Source of the DNA: Pelagibius sp. CAU 1746
GTDB lineage: Bacteria > Pseudomonadota > Alphaproteobacteria > Kiloniellales > Kiloniellaceae
DNA length: 64,000 bases
Assembly: GCF_039839785.1 (NCBI RefSeq)
Contig: NZ_JBDOQT010000001.1
Span: 2,108,001-2,172,000, forward strand
Direction: 5' to 3'
The position numbers and the translations under genes were made by a program. The notes under the pieces are model-generated. The model searched no databases. It was given only the letters and a program-made list of their open reading frames with translations, and was not told the DNA's origin. This document shows positions 5,795 to 12,895 of the stretch, one piece after another (position 1 is the first letter of the stretch; every line of letters starts with the position of its first letter).

Positions 5795-7282
5795 ATGACC
5801 GCGCAAGCGCAGAAAATTACGACAGCCACGCCACAACTCTCCGATCCCCGGCTGTTCCGGGAACAGTGCTACATCGATGGCCGCTGGGCCGACGCCGACA
5901 GCGGGGCGGTGATCGAAGTCACCAACCCGGCGAGCGGCGAGGTGCTGGGCACCGTCCCCAAGATGGGCGCCGCCGAGACCCGGCGCGCCATCGAGGCGGC
6001 GGAGAAGGCCTGGCCGGCGTGGCGCGGCCTGCTGGCCAAGGAGCGCGCCAACATCCTGCGCAAGTGGTACGACCTGATCCTGGAAAACCAGGAGGATCTG
6101 GCGCGGCTGATGACCCTGGAACAGGGTAAGCCGTTGACGGAGGCCAAGGGCGAAGTGGTCTACGGTGCCAGCTTCATCGAGTGGTTCGCTGAAGAGGCCA
6201 AACGCATCTACGGCGACACCATCCCGCAGCACCAGCCCGACAAGCGCATTGTCGTGGTCAAGCAGCCGGTCGGCGTGGTGGCGGCGATTACGCCGTGGAA
6301 CTTCCCCAACGCCATGATCACCCGCAAGTGCGCCCCGGCCCTGGCCGCCGGCTGCCCTGTGGTCATCAAACCGGCGACCCAGACGCCGTATTCGGCCTTC
6401 GCCCTGGCCGAGTTGGCCGAGCGCGCGGGCATCCCGGCGGGCATCGTCAACATCCTGACCGGCTCGGCCAGCGAGATCGGCGGCGAGATGACCCACAGCC
6501 CGGTCGTGCGCAAGCTATCCTTCACCGGCTCGACCGAGGTCGGCAAGCTGCTGATGCAGCAGTGCGCCTCCACCATCAAGAAGGTCTCTCTCGAACTGGG
6601 CGGCAATGCGCCTTTCCTGGTCTTCGACGACGCCGACCTGGACGCCGCGGTCGAGGGCGCCATCATCTCCAAGTTCCGCAACACCGGCCAGACCTGCGTC
6701 TGTGCCAACCGCATTCTGGTGCAGGAAGGCGTCTACGACGAGTTCGCCGCCAAGCTTGCCGAGGCGGTGAAGAAGCTGAAAGTCGGCCCGGGGCTGGAAG
6801 ACGGCGTCAGCCAGGGCCCGCTGATCGACGTGGCGGCCCTGGAGAAGGTCGAGGAGCATGTGGCCGACGCCACCGCCAAGGGCGCCAAGATCGCTTTGGG
6901 CGGCGCCCGGCACGAGCGCGGCGGCACCTTCTACCAGCCGACGGTGCTGACCGACGTGACCACGCAGATGAAGGTGACCCGCGAGGAAACCTTCGGTCCG
7001 GTGGCGCCGCTGTTCCGCTTTAAGACCGAGGAAGAGGGTGTGGCACTGGCCAACGACACCGAGTTCGGTCTGGCCTCCTACTTCTATGCCCGCGACATGG
7101 GCCGCATCTGGCGGGTCGGCGAGGCGCTGGAGACCGGCATGGTGGGCATCAACACCGGCCTCATTTCCACCGAGGTCGCCCCCTTCGGCGGCGTCAAGGA
7201 GTCGGGCATCGGCCGCGAAGGCTCCAAGTACGGCATCGACGAGTTCCTGGAGGTCAAGTACCTCTGCATGGGCGGCGTGTGA
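5795..7282 (+). CDS. gabD: NAD(P)-dependent succinate-semialdehyde dehydrogenase
   Basis: A 495-residue aldehyde dehydrogenase that fits the GabD group, which oxidises succinate semialdehyde to succinate in 4-aminobutyrate breakdown. The coenzyme motif ITPWNFPNAM (165-174), general-base Glu267 in SLELGGNAPF and nucleophile Cys301 in GQTCVCANR are all present, and length is normal. GAGGA precedes the ATG. No gabT or GABA transporter is beside it, so the substrate assignment rests on sequence likeness; a glutarate-semialdehyde role is possible. The gene ends in a region of two palindromes and a bidirectional terminator. Confidence 0.9.
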   Translation: MTAQAQKITTATPQLSDPRLFREQCYIDGRWADADSGAVIEVTNPASGEVLGTVPKMGAAETRRAIEAAEKAWPAWRGLLAKERANILRKWYDLILENQEDLARLMTLEQGKPLTEAKGEVVYGASFIEWFAEEAKRIYGDTIPQHQPDKRIVVVKQPVGVVAAITPWNFPNAMITRKCAPALAAGCPVVIKPATQTPYSAFALAELAERAGIPAGIVNILTGSASEIGGEMTHSPVVRKLSFTGSTEVGKLLMQQCASTIKKVSLELGGNAPFLVFDDADLDAAVEGAIISKFRNTGQTCVCANRILVQEGVYDEFAAKLAEAVKKLKVGPGLEDGVSQGPLIDVAALEKVEEHVADATAKGAKIALGGARHERGGTFYQPTVLTDVTTQMKVTREETFGPVAPLFRFKTEEEGVALANDTEFGLASYFYARDMGRIWRVGEALETGMVGINTGLISTEVAPFGGVKESGIGREGSKYGIDEFLEVKYLCMGGV

Positions 7283-7295
7283 TCCACGCGCCCCG

Positions 7296-7326
7296 TGTCA
7301 TGCTCGGACTTGTTCCGAGCATCCAG
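7296..7326. repeat. REP-like palindrome, copy 1
   Basis: GTCATGCTCGG-acttgtt-CCGAGCATCCAGG, an imperfect hairpin of the same type as the four near the GIY-YIG gene. It faces copy 2 in inverted orientation. Confidence 0.75.
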
Positions 7327-7347
7327 GGCGGGTAGTAGAGCGTTTGC

Positions 7348-7381
7348 TCCTGGACTCTCGGGACAAGCCCGAGGGTGACGG
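7348..7381. repeat. REP-like palindrome, copy 2
   Basis: TCCTGGACTCTCGGG-aca-AGCCCGAGGGTGACG. On the opposite strand it matches the consensus of copy 1 (GTCA..CTCGG..CTTG..CCGAG..TCCAGG). No GIY-YIG gene lies here, so this is a gene-less pair. Confidence 0.75.
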
Positions 7382-7399
7382 ACAGCGAAAACGAAGAAA

Positions 7400-7437
7400 G
7401 GGGCCGGTCCCTCCGAGCGCTTGGCGGGACCGGCCCC
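7400..7437. terminator. bidirectional terminator between gabD and cfa
   Basis: Perfect 12-bp stem GGGGCCGGTCCC (7400-7411) with GGGACCGGCCCC (7426-7437), with A-rich DNA on the left and TTCCTTT on the right. It serves the convergent gabD and cfa genes. Confidence 0.85.
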
Positions 7438-7460
7438 TTCCTTTGTCCGCAGGAGGCGGA

Positions 7461-8693
7461 TTACTCCGCCGCCTGGCTGGCCTCCTCGGCGCGCTTGTGT
7501 TCCCACTCGTAGATGTAGTCCCGCGTCAGCGGCACGGCGTCGATCTTCTTGGCGATCTGGATCTGGAACACCATGAGCCCCTGATAGCGGAAGCCCATCT
7601 CGCAACCGATCAGGTAAGTCTCCCACATGCGGCAGAAGCGCTCGTCGTAGAGTTCCTTGATCTTGTCGCGGTTGGCCTGAAAGCGCTCTTCCCAGATGCG
7701 CAAGGTCTCGGCGTAGTGGATACGCAGGACTTCCACGTCGGTGACGATCATCATGGCGTCTTCGATCGCCGGCAGCACCTCGCCCAGGGTCGGAACGTCG
7801 GTGCCGGGGAAGATATACTTGCGGATGAAGGGATTGACCGGGCCCGGCTCGTTCACGCGGCCGACCGAGTGCAGGACGAAGATGCCGTCGTCCTCCAGCA
7901 GGTCCTTCACCTTCTCGAAGAACTCGCGGTAGTTCCTCTTGCCGACGTGCTCGAACATGCCGACCGAGACGATGCGGTCGTATTTGTTGGAGTCCTCGCG
8001 GTAGTCGCGCAGGTGGAACTGTACCCGGTCGTCCAATCCGGCCATCTTGGCGCGTTCCTGGCTGACCTTGTGCTGTTCGGTCGAGAGGGTGACGCCGGTC
8101 ACCTCGCAGTCGCCGGCCTGGGCCAGGTAGAGGCCCAGCCCGCCCCAGCCGGAGCCGATGTCCAGCAGCTTCATGTCCGGACGGTCGAACAGCAGCTTGG
8201 CGGCGAGGTGGCGCTTCTTGTCGGTCTGGGCCTGCTCCAGGGTCTCGTCGCCGTTGCGGAAGTAGGCGCAGGAGTACTGGCGGTCGGCGTCCAGGAAGAG
8301 GTCGTAGAGCTGGCCCGAGAGGTCGTAGTGGTGGGCCACGTTCTTCCGGGCCTTGCCGATGGGGTTGTACTGCTTCATGCGGCGGACGTGGCCGCCCAGC
8401 GCGAAGCCGAACTTCACCAGCTTGTTATTTTCGAGATGATGGTAGTTGCGCGCGAGCTGGCCGATGAAGTCACGCAGGGTGCCTTCCGTGAGGTCGACTC
8501 CTCCGTTCATGTAGGCTTCGCCGAGAAAGAGCGGGGGATTCAAGACCAGCTTGTACTCGAGGTGGCGCTTGTGAATTTGCATCGTGCAGCGCGGCCCCGT
8601 GCCGTCGCCGCAGTCGTGGGCCTTACCGCTGGCGTCGATGATGCGCAGATTACCGGACTTAATGACCTTCTGCAGAAGCTTCTGGAAAAACAT
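7461..8693 (-). CDS. cfa: cyclopropane-fatty-acyl-phospholipid synthase
   Basis: A 410-residue SAM-dependent enzyme that adds a methylene bridge across double bonds of membrane phospholipid acyl chains. The SAM site reads LLDIGSGWGGLGLYLA, preceded by the acyl-side N-terminal domain typical of the family, and the C-terminal part has IFPGTDVPTLGEV and the FRYQGLMVFQIQ ending. The first residues (MFFQKLLQKVIKSGNL) are a plausible start. Monocistronic, convergent with gabD and divergent from gor. Membrane-associated in the cytosol; usually induced on entry to stationary phase, but nothing here shows that directly. Confidence 0.93.
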   Translation of the reverse strand: MFFQKLLQKVIKSGNLRIIDASGKAHDCGDGTGPRCTMQIHKRHLEYKLVLNPPLFLGEAYMNGGVDLTEGTLRDFIGQLARNYHHLENNKLVKFGFALGGHVRRMKQYNPIGKARKNVAHHYDLSGQLYDLFLDADRQYSCAYFRNGDETLEQAQTDKKRHLAAKLLFDRPDMKLLDIGSGWGGLGLYLAQAGDCEVTGVTLSTEQHKVSQERAKMAGLDDRVQFHLRDYREDSNKYDRIVSVGMFEHVGKRNYREFFEKVKDLLEDDGIFVLHSVGRVNEPGPVNPFIRKYIFPGTDVPTLGEVLPAIEDAMMIVTDVEVLRIHYAETLRIWEERFQANRDKIKELYDERFCRMWETYLIGCEMGFRYQGLMVFQIQIAKKIDAVPLTRDYIYEWEHKRAEEASQAAE

Positions 8694-9049
8694 GGTTCAA
8701 CTCCGGATGTTCTTCCCCTCATTCGCCTATAGGGGCTTACCGTTCGTTATGCCTTTATTTGTTGCATCCCTATCAGTATCTTGGCGCGATCTTTTGAACC
8801 GTGCAACTGTCTGAGACTTCGGCCCTATCTTCCGAGGGTTGCGCTCTTCCCGGAGTCGGCAAACCCTCTCGTTTTCTATGGTTAAAGGGCCCCTCCGCCG
8901 TGCCGAAGCCTCCCGTGCGGTTGCGGTGCAGCGTAGGCCTGCCTAGATTGATCTCTAGGCAGGCGCGGACTCGACCCGGCCTTCCGGCGGATGGTTGCCT
9001 GGCGGGCCCAGGCTCAGTCAGGGGCGGCGGACAGACCGAAGGATAAATT
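8694..9049. other. divergent control region between cfa and gor
   Basis: A 356-bp gap that must hold promoters for both cfa (minus) and gor (plus). Its most visible element is the perfect inverted repeat at 8937-8964. The cfa-proximal 120 bp is AT-richer than the surroundings. No RNA gene seen. Confidence 0.5.
8937..8964. promoter_or_regulatory. perfect 11-bp inverted repeat upstream of gor
   Basis: GCCTGCCTAGA (8937-8947), a 6-nt spacer, then TCTAGGCAGGC (8954-8964). There is no T run, so it looks more like an operator or structured leader than a terminator. It lies about 85 bp before the gor ATG. Confidence 0.5.
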
Positions 9050-10426
9050 ATGGCCGGGCACGACTACGATCTCTTTGTCATTGGCGGTGGCTCCGGCGGG
9101 GTCCGGGGCGCGCGCATGGCTGCGGCGACCGGGGCGAAGGTGGCCATCGCGGAATCCTACCGCTACGGCGGGACCTGCGTGATCCGCGGCTGCGTACCCA
9201 AGAAGCTGCTGTCCTACGCCAGCCACTTCCACGAGGACTTCGAGGATGCCGCCGGCTTCGGCTGGAGCGTGCCCGAGCCGTCTTTCGACTGGACGCGGCT
9301 GATCGCCAACAAGGACCAGGAGATCGACCGCCTGGAAGGTATTTATGAGAAGTTGCTAAAGACCGCCGGCGTCGAGTTCTTCCACGGCCACGCCCGTCTG
9401 CTGGACGCCCATACCGTGGAGGTGGGCGACAAGTCCTTCACCGCCGAGACCATCCTCATCGCCACCGGCGGCACCCCGACCTTCCCCATGGAGCCGGGCT
9501 GGGAGCACGGCATCTCCTCCAACGAGGCCTTTCACCTGGAAGCACTGCCGAAGCGCGTGGTGATCAACGGCGGCGGCTTCATCGCCGTGGAGTTCGCCGG
9601 CATCTTCAACGGCCTGGGCAGCGAGGTGACACAAATCTACCGCGGCCCGCAGATCCTGCGCGGCTTCGACGACGACATCCGCAACACCCTGGCCGGCGAG
9701 ATCGTCAAGAAGGGCATCAACCTTATCGTCGAGACCACAATCGAGCGCATCGAGAAGCGCGAGAAGGACCTGTTGGTCCACCTCTCCGACGGCTCGGAGA
9801 TCGAGTGCGACCTGGTCATGGCGGCGACCGGGCGCAGCCCCAACGTGCACAACCTGGGCCTGGAGGAGGTCGGCGTGGCGCTGGCCAAGAACGGCGCCAT
9901 CAAGGTCGACGAATTCTCCAAAACCTCGGTCGACAACATCTACGCCGTTGGCGACGTGACCGACCGCATCAACCTCACCCCCGTCGCGATCCAGGAGGCC
10001 ATGGCCTTCGTCGACACGGTCTACCGCGGCACGCCGCGCGCCATGGACCACGCCGACGTGCCCTCGGCCGTCTTCAGCCATCCGCCGGTCGGCACCGTCG
10101 GCCTCACCGAGCTGCAGGCGCGCGAACGGCATGGAGAGCTGGACATCTACCGCTCGACCTTTCGCCCCCTCAAACACACCCTCTCGGGCCGCGACGAGAA
10201 GACCATGATGAAGCTGATCGTCGCCAAGGACAGCCAGCGCGTGGTCGGCGTCCACATGGTGGGCCTCGACGCACCGGAGATCGTCCAGGGCATGGCCGTC
10301 GCCATCAAGGCCGGCGCCACCAAGCAGATCTTCGACGCCACCGTCGGCATCCACCCCACGGCGGCCGAAGAGTTCGTCACCATGCGCGAGCCCATCCCCG
10401 GCGACCAGGCCAAGGCGGCGGAGTAG
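9050..10426 (+). CDS. gor: glutathione-disulfide reductase
   Basis: A 458-residue FAD flavoenzyme that reduces glutathione disulfide with NADPH. The FAD-binding GGGSGGVRGAR motif is at residues 12-22, the redox-active disulfide is Cys43/Cys48 in GTCVIRGCVPKK, a second Rossmann motif is at NGGGFIAVEFAGI, and the C-terminal base is in GIHPTAAEE. AAGGA sits 7 nt before the ATG. It is followed after 5 nt by a small membrane-protein gene, probably cotranscribed. In this genome glutathione also serves the grxD and GFA proteins further along. Confidence 0.95.
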   Translation: MAGHDYDLFVIGGGSGGVRGARMAAATGAKVAIAESYRYGGTCVIRGCVPKKLLSYASHFHEDFEDAAGFGWSVPEPSFDWTRLIANKDQEIDRLEGIYEKLLKTAGVEFFHGHARLLDAHTVEVGDKSFTAETILIATGGTPTFPMEPGWEHGISSNEAFHLEALPKRVVINGGGFIAVEFAGIFNGLGSEVTQIYRGPQILRGFDDDIRNTLAGEIVKKGINLIVETTIERIEKREKDLLVHLSDGSEIECDLVMAATGRSPNVHNLGLEEVGVALAKNGAIKVDEFSKTSVDNIYAVGDVTDRINLTPVAIQEAMAFVDTVYRGTPRAMDHADVPSAVFSHPPVGTVGLTELQARERHGELDIYRSTFRPLKHTLSGRDEKTMMKLIVAKDSQRVVGVHMVGLDAPEIVQGMAVAIKAGATKQIFDATVGIHPTAAEEFVTMREPIPGDQAKAAE

Positions 10427-10431
10427 GGGGC

Positions 10432-10932
10432 ATGGCGATTGTTTCCAGGAGCGTCTTTCTGGGAGCAGCCATTTTCGCGGGCGCTGCAGTGATTGCGGTT
10501 TTGGCCGCCATGGTGCTTCATGGGATCCCTCACTCGGGCAGATCGTTCTCCGAAGCTCTCGCGATCCGACTAACTTTCAGCCTGGCCGCCGGCATTGCGG
10601 CTGCCATCTCCTATGTCGTGGTTTGGAGCTTCGGCTGGCGCTTGCGCTGTGAGCCATTGTTGGGCCGCGCACTTGTTGCTGGTTGCTCGACGGTTGTGAT
10701 CGAGCACCTGCTTATCGGTGGGTCCTACGGCTTCCTGCTGCTGATTGTGAATATCGTTCTGCCCAACCCGCCTTTCTGGGCCAGAGGGCTCAATTTTTCT
10801 GTATTGGGGATGGGCATCCTGGTGGCCGCTTATGGGTGGTATCTGACGCTGCCCCTCGGAATTGCAGCGGCAGCGATCGTGGAATGGCTGGAGCGGCGTC
10901 GGGAGGCGGCAGCGGCCAAGGCTGCCGGCTAG
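10432..10932 (+). CDS. unknown small integral membrane protein
   Basis: A 166-residue protein with four hydrophobic segments (about 7-28, 44-68, 80-105 and 115-140) and a basic, Ala-rich cytosolic tail (EWLERRREAAAAKAAG). Family not recognised. It starts 5 nt after gor, with GTAGGGGG just before the ATG, so it is probably translated from the same mRNA. It is the last gene before the palindrome/GIY-YIG unit. Confidence 0.7.
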   Translation: MAIVSRSVFLGAAIFAGAAVIAVLAAMVLHGIPHSGRSFSEALAIRLTFSLAAGIAAAISYVVVWSFGWRLRCEPLLGRALVAGCSTVVIEHLLIGGSYGFLLLIVNIVLPNPPFWARGLNFSVLGMGILVAAYGWYLTLPLGIAAAAIVEWLERRREAAAAKAAG

Positions 10933-10948
10933 GGAGCGCTTCATCGGA

Positions 10949-10985
10949 ATGGATGCTCGGGTCAAGCCCGAGCATGACGGTGGTG
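10949..10985. repeat. REP-like palindrome A (left pair)
   Basis: ATGGATGCTCGGG-tca-AGCCCGAGCATGACGGTGG: a strong hairpin with GATGCTCGGG / CCCGAGCAT arms. Nearly identical to palindrome C at 11363-11399. Confidence 0.9.
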
Positions 10986-11020
10986 GTAGGCGAGGTGCAG
11001 ATGCGTGTCCCACACCCAAT

Positions 11021-11053
11021 CGTCACCCTCGGGCTTGACCCGAGGGTCCATTC
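11021..11053. repeat. REP-like palindrome B (left pair)
   Basis: CGTCACCCTCGGGcttgaCCCGAGGGTCCAT, inverted relative to A, ending right at the 3' end of the GIY-YIG gene (stop at 11055). Nearly identical to palindrome D. Confidence 0.9.
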
Positions 11054-11054
11054 G

Positions 11055-11363
11055 TCAGCCGCTCAGGCCGTCCCAGAGATCGACCCACTGCGGGTTGTCG
11101 CGCTCGATCAGAGCGATCTTCCAGTCACGGTTCCAGCGTTTCAGGGCCTTCTCTCTTCGGATTGCCTGCTCCGGGCTGTCGTGGATCTCGTAGTAGACCA
11201 GAGTTTTCACGCCGTGCCGTTTGGTGAAGCCGTGGGCCAGCGCCTCGCGGTGTTCGTAGACACGGCGCACCAAGTCGTTCGTCACTCCGATGTAGAGGGT
11301 TCCGTTGGGCGCACTGGCCAGGATGTAGACGTAGTACTGCACGTCCAGGAGTTGGCGGCACAA
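11055..11363 (-). CDS. GIY-YIG nuclease superfamily protein
   Basis: A single GIY-YIG domain of up to 102 residues. Seen in order: YYVYIL (the GIY equivalent, residues 10-15), LYIGVT (YIG, 23-28), RRVYEHR with the conserved Arg, and REKALKRWNRDWKIALIE near the C-terminus. Homologues of this short type are multicopy in alphaproteobacterial genomes. The start is uncertain: TTG at 11363 lies at the inner edge of palindrome C, and GTG at 11342 would give MQYYVYILAS; neither has a clear ribosome site. The gene is exactly filled in between two nearly identical palindrome pairs, so gene plus pairs look like one unit. Likely a DNA endonuclease (family), target unknown. Confidence 0.88.
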   Translation of the reverse strand: MCRQLLDVQYYVYILASAPNGTLYIGVTNDLVRRVYEHREALAHGFTKRHGVKTLVYYEIHDSPEQAIRREKALKRWNRDWKIALIERDNPQWVDLWDGLSG

Positions 11364-11399
11364 TGGATGCTCGGGTCAAGCCCGAGCATGACGGTGGGG
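11363..11399. repeat. REP-like palindrome C (right pair)
   Basis: ATGGATGCTCGGG-tca-AGCCCGAGCATGACGGTGG, matching palindrome A over about 34 bases. It abuts the start of the GIY-YIG gene. Confidence 0.9.
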
Positions 11400-11453
11400 G
11401 AGGAAGGGGCGCCAGTGCGTACCCTCAATCCAGGCAGTGCGCCCAAGACCGGG

Positions 11454-11487
11454 TCGTCACCCTCGGGCTTGACCCGAGGGTTCATGG
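11454..11487. repeat. REP-like palindrome D (right pair)
   Basis: CGTCACCCTCGGGcttgaCCCGAGGGTTCATG, matching palindrome B. The DNA between C and D (about 55 bp) differs from that between A and B (about 35 bp), so only the hairpins are conserved. Confidence 0.9.
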
Positions 11488-11503
11488 GACGGTTAGGTCC
11501 GGT

Positions 11504-12895
<1,392 letters not shown>

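Follow-up and report, generated by a model that had tools for sequence, protein, structure and literature searches.

Results

A GIY-YIG nuclease gene enclosed by CGTC-tagged REPs

We found that a small GIY-YIG nuclease gene is, with near certainty, associated with CGTC-tagged REPs. The partnership between nuclease and REPs is well supported, and it is quite probable that the GIY-YIG protein is the dedicated partner of a REP-bounded element, a nuclease-based counterpart of REP/RAYT systems, with gene-less REP pairs as its MITE-like offspring.

The window analyzed is a 64,000-nucleotide stretch of the Pelagibius sp. CAU 1746 genome (G000:C1:2108001-2172000). It contains a 102-amino-acid ORF starting at TTG (11055-11363, minus strand) that matches PF01541. 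Four 30-nt palindromes surround this gene: the outer REP A (10950-10979, minus strand, ATGC arm); the CGTC-tagged REP B (11021-11050, plus strand, ACCC arm), which is the inner REP on the 3' side of the gene; the CGTC-tagged REP C (11364-11393, minus strand, ATGC arm), the inner REP on its 5' side; and the outer REP D (11455-11484, plus strand, ACCC arm). Each consists of a CGTC head, a 9-bp stem, a 5-nt loop, and a 3-nt tail, the tail being CCA in A, B, and C and TCA in D. A sequence-only reading had described four palindromes around the gene, with A matching C, B matching D, and different DNA within each pair. This description was accurate: C repeats A exactly, D departs from B at a single base of the tail, and the A-B spacer (10980-11020) and C-D spacer (11394-11454) are dissimilar (0.49 identity). 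With '>' for a REP whose tag comes first on the plus strand, the locus reads A<, B>, gene, C<, D>. The gene is therefore enclosed by a tag-outward pair of unlike arm types (ACCC and ATGC), B> ... C<, and the outer REPs complete a '< >' pair on either side of it. The minimal REP-gene-REP unit (11021-11393, minus strand) spans 373 bp with its tags outward, resembling terminal inverted repeats. The gene had also been said to fill the B-C gap with 1-2 bp to spare at each end. However, 4 bp separate the stop from REP B, and the gap at the other end is 0 bp only if TTG starts the gene. A GTG about 21 bp inside (11340-11342, minus strand) is the likelier start, since homologues begin near YYVYI and the confidence of the structural model is low at residues 1-5; it leaves a gap of about 21 bp.

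Folded as single-stranded DNA, A-D form the 9-bp stem and 5-nt loop at -10.7 to -11.2 kcal/mol (z about -5). The 17-nt core, with up to 3 mismatches, occurs six times in the window against 0.59 expected, a count reached in 0/100 shuffles. Genome-wide, it gave 117 matches (45 exact) versus 24 for a reversed-pattern control, and a longer tagged pattern gave 104 versus 0. An Rfam search of window positions 7000-12000 and a PADLOC search returned no match, and PHROGs returned just one weak homing-endonuclease match.

The domain score, the conserved catalytic columns, and the structural model all agree in placing the protein in the GIY-YIG nuclease superfamily. The ORF scored 63.8 bits against PF01541, and in an alignment of 31 proteins Y24, G26, R34, H38, and N90 were invariant, with Y13 and E71 nearly so; these residues make up the GIY-YIG active-site set. 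The AF2 model (pLDDT 88) folds as one compact domain and leaves no room for an additional DNA-binding domain. The closest solved sequence relatives are the UPF0213 proteins 1zg2 (E 1.4e-5) and 1ywl (E 0.015), and phage records yielded just two distant protein matches. In-frame stops were noted in five of the best 80 of at least 581 homologue matches (L040, L053, L072, L088, and L105), as expected of decaying copies of a mobile element.

The association extends across homologues and phyla

Homologue loci were taken from the best 80 of at least 581 confirmed matches; 73 were scorable, whereas in the other seven the locus ended within 260 bp of the gene. REP detection required a YGTC-like head, a 7-9 bp stem of free sequence, a loop of 4-6 nt, and a tail resembling CCA. 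CGTC-REPs lay on both sides of the gene at 38 of these 73 loci, on one side at 22, and on neither at 13, as compared with 0, 64, and 898 of 962 control pseudo-genes of comparable size set at other positions in these loci. REP density was 3.67/kb beside the gene (142 in 38,690 bp) versus 0.147/kb far from it (50 in 339,338 bp). Two other detection schemes were discarded: a scan for the CTCGGG core alone missed most homologues as well as the second copy of the window's genome (L137), later shown to be REP-bounded, and a head-blind hairpin detector was too permissive, scoring 'both' in 218/889 control placements.

The nearest REPs at the 38 two-sided loci were oriented '> gene <' in 26 cases, '< gene >' in 10, and '> gene >' in two. 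Among the 26 '> gene <' units, all from the best 80 of at least 581 matches, the median length was 372.5 bp and 24 fell within 351-404 bp. Copies from the window's own genus (L116, L117, L136, L137, L140, and L162) measured 372-373 bp. These comparisons suggest that gene and hairpins form one mobile unit of about 372 bp.

By record title, the two-sided loci include members of Rhodospirillaceae, Pelagibius, Bradyrhizobium, Rickettsiales, Polaromonas, Deltaproteobacteria, and Omnitrophota, Marinimicrobia, Chloroflexi, and Patescibacteria-type bins, although single phylum labels may be misbinned because many records are MAGs. The association reaches beyond the CTCGGG palindrome and beyond alphaproteobacteria. 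REP stems vary by lineage (e.g., ATTCCCGC, ATCGCCCGG, ATGCTCGGG, and GTCCCGGGG), and REP arms were more alike within a locus (0.79 identity) than between loci (0.55). For covariation, 101 loci were entered, 95 had no stop in the matched stretch, and the 56 flanked by REPs on both sides were used. Protein identity correlated with REP identity overall (r=0.51, n=56), in Bradyrhizobium (0.63, n=17), and in the window's genus (0.83, n=12), with 0/2000 permutations reaching each value, though linkage without recognition could give part of this covariation.

It should be noted that the 38/73 sample leans to close relatives, as the best 80 of at least 581 loci are the most similar ones. A less selected sample was the set of matches at E<=1e-10 in 61 genomes of the window's order: 41 matches were found in 18 of these genomes, and all were scored. 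REPs were present on both sides of 21, on one side of four, and on neither side of 16, the far density being 0.088/kb. The sequence-only reading had allowed that most homologues might prove bare, which is not what either sample returned. The copies that lacked a CGTC-REP by the detector (16/41 in the order panel and 13/73 among the distant copies) do count against the preferred reading. At least two of the 16 bare order-panel copies are partial matches (L173 and L175). No CGTC-REP was detected at the three order-panel matches below 50% identity, at four weaker relatives in other genomes (L264, L265, L266, and L268), or at the third GIY-YIG gene of the window's genome (L003), which had just a sub-threshold match. 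From these eight distant relatives and the bare copies, we conclude that CGTC-REPs are tied to one GIY-YIG subfamily and not to its every copy. At L130 (1384 and 1866), a different palindrome of the CCCGAAAGCCC-GGGCTTTCGGG type lies on both sides of a bare GIY-YIG copy of at least 50% identity, and is perhaps a further end type.

In the plasmid set, 33 records had a protein match, and a first 10 of these were scored. REPs flanked the gene on both sides in six (L243, L246, L247, L248, L250, and L251), on one side in three (L244, L245, and L252), and on neither in L249. Three records filed as plasmids (NZ_CP119140.1, NZ_AP026896.1, and NZ_CP104135.1) are chromosome-sized (2.2-4.9 Mb). The GIY gene of Novosphingobium pNL2 has no REPs beside it, and the REPs neighboring the copies of Sinorhizobium (two records) and R. 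tumorigenes are CCTC-tagged. In Rhizobium sp. CIAT894 (L248:2300-2900) and Photobacterium sp. GJ3 (L252:2440-3700), the GIY gene is followed by '> <' REP pairs repeated in regular tandem.

The palindromes of the window are CGTC-tagged REPs as described by Di Nocera, De Gregorio, and Rocco in 2013 (PMC3733652). REPs A-D have the CGTC head, a stem of 9 bp (8-9 in the class), and a loop of 5 nt (4-5 in the class), and the genome holds many copies, mostly as inverted dimers (104 tagged matches and 16 distinct '> <' pairs). In that paper, the class is given a CGTC, TGTC, or CCTC head, a CCA tail, a dimeric arrangement, and an alphaproteobacterial bias with members in other phyla, and it includes dRS3 of Neisseria and RPE-4/-6 of Rickettsia conorii. 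The N. gonorrhoeae GIY gene (61% identical) is embedded in an array of dRS3-type repeats. One published trait fails, namely the lack of an associated transposase gene, since a nuclease gene is flanked on both sides at 38/73 and 21/41 loci. This is a revision of the class description and no ground for exclusion from the class.

Genomes with the nuclease gene are mostly REP-rich

We summed the counts of two tagged REP patterns in the 61 genomes of the order, for which reversed controls gave 0 or 1 per genome and strand. At least five REPs were found in 17 of the 18 genomes with the gene versus nine of the 43 without it (Fisher 8.5e-8; several genomes are incomplete), and the median counts were 65 and 0, respectively. 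The difference persisted in a genus-level test (10 versus 18 genera; p=2.5e-5), which handles kinship at that level only. REPs equally frequent in genomes without the gene, the other outcome that had been named as unfavorable, were thus not observed. In g1, genomes with the gene held 104, 53, 86, 77, and 99 REPs versus 37, 26, and 17 in those without; in g21, 104 and 77 versus 15; and in g23, 11 versus 1 and 3. The picture was mixed in g18 (9, 17, and 47 with the gene versus 19 without) and reversed in g11 (11 versus 13) and g17 (2 versus 6), where G018, which lacks the gene, retains a 28-codon remnant resembling it. The nine of 43 genomes that have at least five REPs without the gene, among them G035 with 48, also speak against the preferred reading.

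These counts bear on an alternative that we consider unlikely, in which the GIY-YIG gene is retained cargo and a different enzyme, be it a Y1/RAYT transposase or that of some other IS, moves the unit. RAYTs or other transposases are the possible movers of CGTC-REPs suggested by Di Nocera et al. (PMC3733652), and the window's genome has five Y1 matches. However, the presence of Y1 transposases (PF01797), the class compared and present in 29/61 genomes, is unlinked to that of REPs (14/26 REP-rich genomes versus 15/35 others, p=0.44). Of the ten genomes with at least 50 REPs, all ten have the GIY gene and five have no Y1. The unit also has little space beyond one gene (351-404 bp in 24 of the 26 loci from the best 80 of at least 581), and both REP families of the genus track their own gene clade. 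Four Y1 matches of the window's genome cluster in a stretch of about 11 kb (G000:C1:3506110-3517353), and two of these four contain an internal stop.

Gene-less REP pairs and differences between related genomes

From 30 exact-core sites of the window's genome, 16 gene-less '> <' pairs were parsed. All join unlike arms: 14 are ATGC+ACCC, the types that bound the gene, one is ATTG+ACCC, and one is ATCC+ACCC (L020). One possible explanation for such heterodimers is that they would be the two unlike ends of a parent unit. The spacers of 15 pairs (L020 having been removed by a filter) measure 3-47 bp, and TNGTGCC, which follows REP C, occurs at six of their 30 inner edges, a number reached in 0/2000 shuffles for a motif chosen post hoc. 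One pair lies in the window at 7296-7380 (ATGC arm at 7296-7325, ACCC arm at 7351-7380), after an ORF that we take to be aldehyde-dehydrogenase-like. It had been taken to fit a spread element that does not carry the gene. It belongs to the same REP family, but its '> <' order is that of B>/C<, unlike A-B or C-D.

Comparison of strains revealed differences in presence and absence. At cysS-gor, the GIY gene is present in three of eight genomes of the genus. G000 and G052 share the arrangement '< > gene < >' with proteins 95% identical, and G053 has '> gene <' with a protein 77% identical and both REPs altered together (CTCGG to CGCGG). The remaining five congeners have neither gene nor CGTC-REP there, and carry other short repeats instead. 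The A-B spacer is homologous to the spacer on the opposite, upstream side of the gene in G052; indeed, the spacer of the downstream pair in one genome is that of the upstream pair in the other, which indicates that REP pairs were exchanged or converted. Short duplicated pieces of cysS and gor near this spot in G051 and G057 (L151:3376-3493, L153, and L147) suggest that it is rearrangement-prone. In Azospirillum lipoferum 4B, sufB and sufC are separated by '> < gene > <'; the five relatives compared (A. ramasamyi, A. oryzae, B510, A. argentinense, and A. brasilense) show a short spacer at this position that lacks both gene and REPs.

Ten of the 16 gene-less sites were searched in congeners, and nine of these were aligned to G052 (L018 being left out): the pair is kept at two, and the matched segment has no REP at seven. 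The 7296 pair is absent from G052, degenerate in G053, and replaced by a family-2 deletion derivative (see below) in G054 (L199:13004-13113), so that this site has been used by two REP families. Congener sites without CGTC-REPs hold repeats of the CATCCTTCGAGACG... and CCCTCTCCC...GGGAGAGGG types (L147-L151 at cysS-gor; L198 and L200-L202 at the 7296 site), as if small repeat families competed for the same intergenic slots. The empty-site comparison proposed by the sequence-only reading shows differences in presence and absence. Because the sister intergenic sequences are too diverged, the exact joints were not readable, and neither cysS-gor, sufB-sufC, the 7296 pair, nor the nine gene-less sites compared with G052 yielded a target-site duplication or a clean junction. 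Outside the REPs, stretches shared by several family-2 copies of G054 were seen by eye, along with a weak base preference beside the tag, and no general element end was found.

At the 14 loci with a pair on each side of the gene, the two spacers were more alike within a locus (0.70) than between loci (0.46). Nine loci, seven of them from Bradyrhizobium, reached at least 0.77. These similar spacers fit a duplication of the pair around the gene, and a shared family consensus can explain much of the similarity.

A second gene clade with its own REP family

The second GIY gene of the window's genome (C3:30983, L137; 60% identical) lies inside '> <' REPs of another family, GTCCCGG (family 2). Eight congeners were counted: G000 has 14 family-2 REPs, G052 30, G054 64, and G057 12, and G051, G053, G055, and G056 have none. 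Family-2 units were found once in G000, twice in G052, and three times, plus fragments, in G054, and in none of the other congeners. Their interiors between the 30-nt REPs measure 312, 312, 312, 312, 313, and 310 bp; the 313- and 310-bp copies, both in G054, may be damaged genes. The second REP family tracks the second gene clade in the genus, with one case against the preferred reading, as G057 holds its 12 REPs without a full family-2 gene.

We scored 18 gene-less pairs, hand-chosen from the family-2 list, for gene remnants. Remnants were present in 10, against a mean of 0.03 and a maximum of 1 for shuffled spacers: L176, for instance, retains 108 bp of the gene at 97%, and L193 fuses its start and end in 71 bp. 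The pairs with remnants are deletion derivatives of gene-bearing units. They support, in the sister family, the earlier proposal of a spread element that does not carry the gene, and were seen in family 2 only, the pairs of the window's family having at most a short shared inner edge. In G057, five 69-bp family-2 copies are of one kind, three on one 2.4-kb stretch and two on another. Such repeated copies of one deletion product fit a non-autonomous mobile element, and local duplication can explain part of them.

The remnants also weigh on a further alternative, which we hold to be slightly less likely still than the cargo explanation. Here, the REPs would be older and independent, and a homing-type GIY-YIG nuclease would cut REP pairs and be copied into them by gene conversion. 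Such a nuclease would account for how often the gene sits amid REP pairs (at 14 loci, a pair flanks it on either side) and for the spacers that switched sides between the G000 and G052 orthologues, and GIY-YIG homing endonucleases do exist (PMC1564403). It fits poorly with the 10/18 scored family-2 pairs that are deletion products, which show that REP pairs derive from units and not just the reverse, with the tight unit length, and with the near-zero counts of the two REP types in most genomes without the gene. The idea that the REPs are terminators of the GIY gene was dropped, as it leaves the gene-less pairs with gene remnants unexplained.

Discussion

The sequence-only reading had proposed the GIY-YIG protein as the mobiliser or maintenance enzyme of the palindromes. 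The partnership stands; that the nuclease mobilises the unit is what we infer as reasonably likely. Under the preferred reading of a dedicated nuclease partner, the protein would recognize the REP hairpin, either as a cruciform or in single-stranded DNA at the replication fork, and would nick it at the unpaired tag or the stem base. Relatives such as SLX1 and ANKLE1 are reported to cut branched DNA. Host replication and repair would then insert a copy of the REP-bounded stretch elsewhere, and neighboring REP pairs would sometimes be converted. GIY-YIG enzymes hydrolyze DNA, and we know of none that joins ends; this step would thus fall to host enzymes. Internal deletions of the gene would give rise to short REP pairs; spreading in trans, these would account for most REPs of the genome. 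As a guess, the '< >' pairs beside the gene would be the expected leftover of a circular or tandem intermediate. We lean slightly toward a broader reading as well, namely a class of transposable elements found in several phyla, about 372 bp long with hairpin ends, that encode nothing but a GIY-YIG nuclease, a hydrolytic enzyme of about 95 amino acids, and whose non-autonomous population is the CGTC-REPs, including dRS3 and RPE-type repeats.

With a specific nuclease family located inside the repeats, its active site intact, there is a candidate partner for a REP class that was described without one, and the enzyme question for CGTC-REPs is now reduced to one small protein and one 30-nt hairpin. 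If the nuclease drives the spread, this would be a route to DNA mobility, possibly among the smallest self-contained ones, based on an enzyme class that is not known to power a transposon alone. Many genes annotated just as 'GIY-YIG nuclease family protein' would also gain a role, and the unlike arms of the gene-less pairs in the window's genome would be explained as the two ends of the parent unit. Heterodimeric CGTC REPs were reported without an obvious explanation in PMC3733652.

According to Di Nocera et al., CGTC-tagged REPs "apparently lack a dedicated transposase"; the element encoding their enzyme was suggested in 2013 to have possibly vanished early, and the enzyme was left open (PMC3733652). 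'GIY' is absent from the main text of that paper, in which one word begins with 'nuclease'. Its counts of REPs in genes excluded hypothetical proteins under 120 amino acids, which may be part of the reason why a 95-amino-acid nuclease went unnoticed. No literature joining GIY-YIG proteins to REPs was found, including in the consulted portions of PMC12306157, PMC1564403, and PMC6006769, and the link is absent from passages of PMC8049555, PMC5082802, and PMC9465073. An earlier report could exist among preprints and most subscription papers, which lay outside the search.

The element combines features of several known systems. With GIY-YIG homing endonucleases of the I-TevI type and single-domain UPF0213/YhbQ-like proteins, it shares the GIY-YIG fold and active site; unlike these, it is REP-bounded and has no DNA-binding extension, and no intron or intein was seen. 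Like IS elements with MITEs, it has inverted ends around an enzyme gene (26 units) and deletion derivatives that keep these ends (10/18), but its ends are hairpins, the whole measures about 372 bp, it encodes no known transposase type, and no target duplication was found. REP/RAYT systems (REPtrons and REPINs) likewise have hairpin dimers with a short unpaired tag, a dedicated nuclease gene between the same hairpins, and an excess of gene-less dimers. The tag is CGTC here (in all four REPs) and GTAG there, and the gene between the REPs encodes a GIY-YIG protein instead of a Y1 (HUH) transposase. The two enzymes have unrelated folds and differ in chemistry, RAYTs acting through a covalent HUH tyrosine and GIY-YIG nucleases by hydrolysis. 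As for the CGTC-tagged REPs themselves, the palindromes share the head, stem, loop, tail, dimers, and alphaproteobacterial bias given in PMC3733652, and differ from the class as published there in that a GIY-YIG gene lies inside the dimers.
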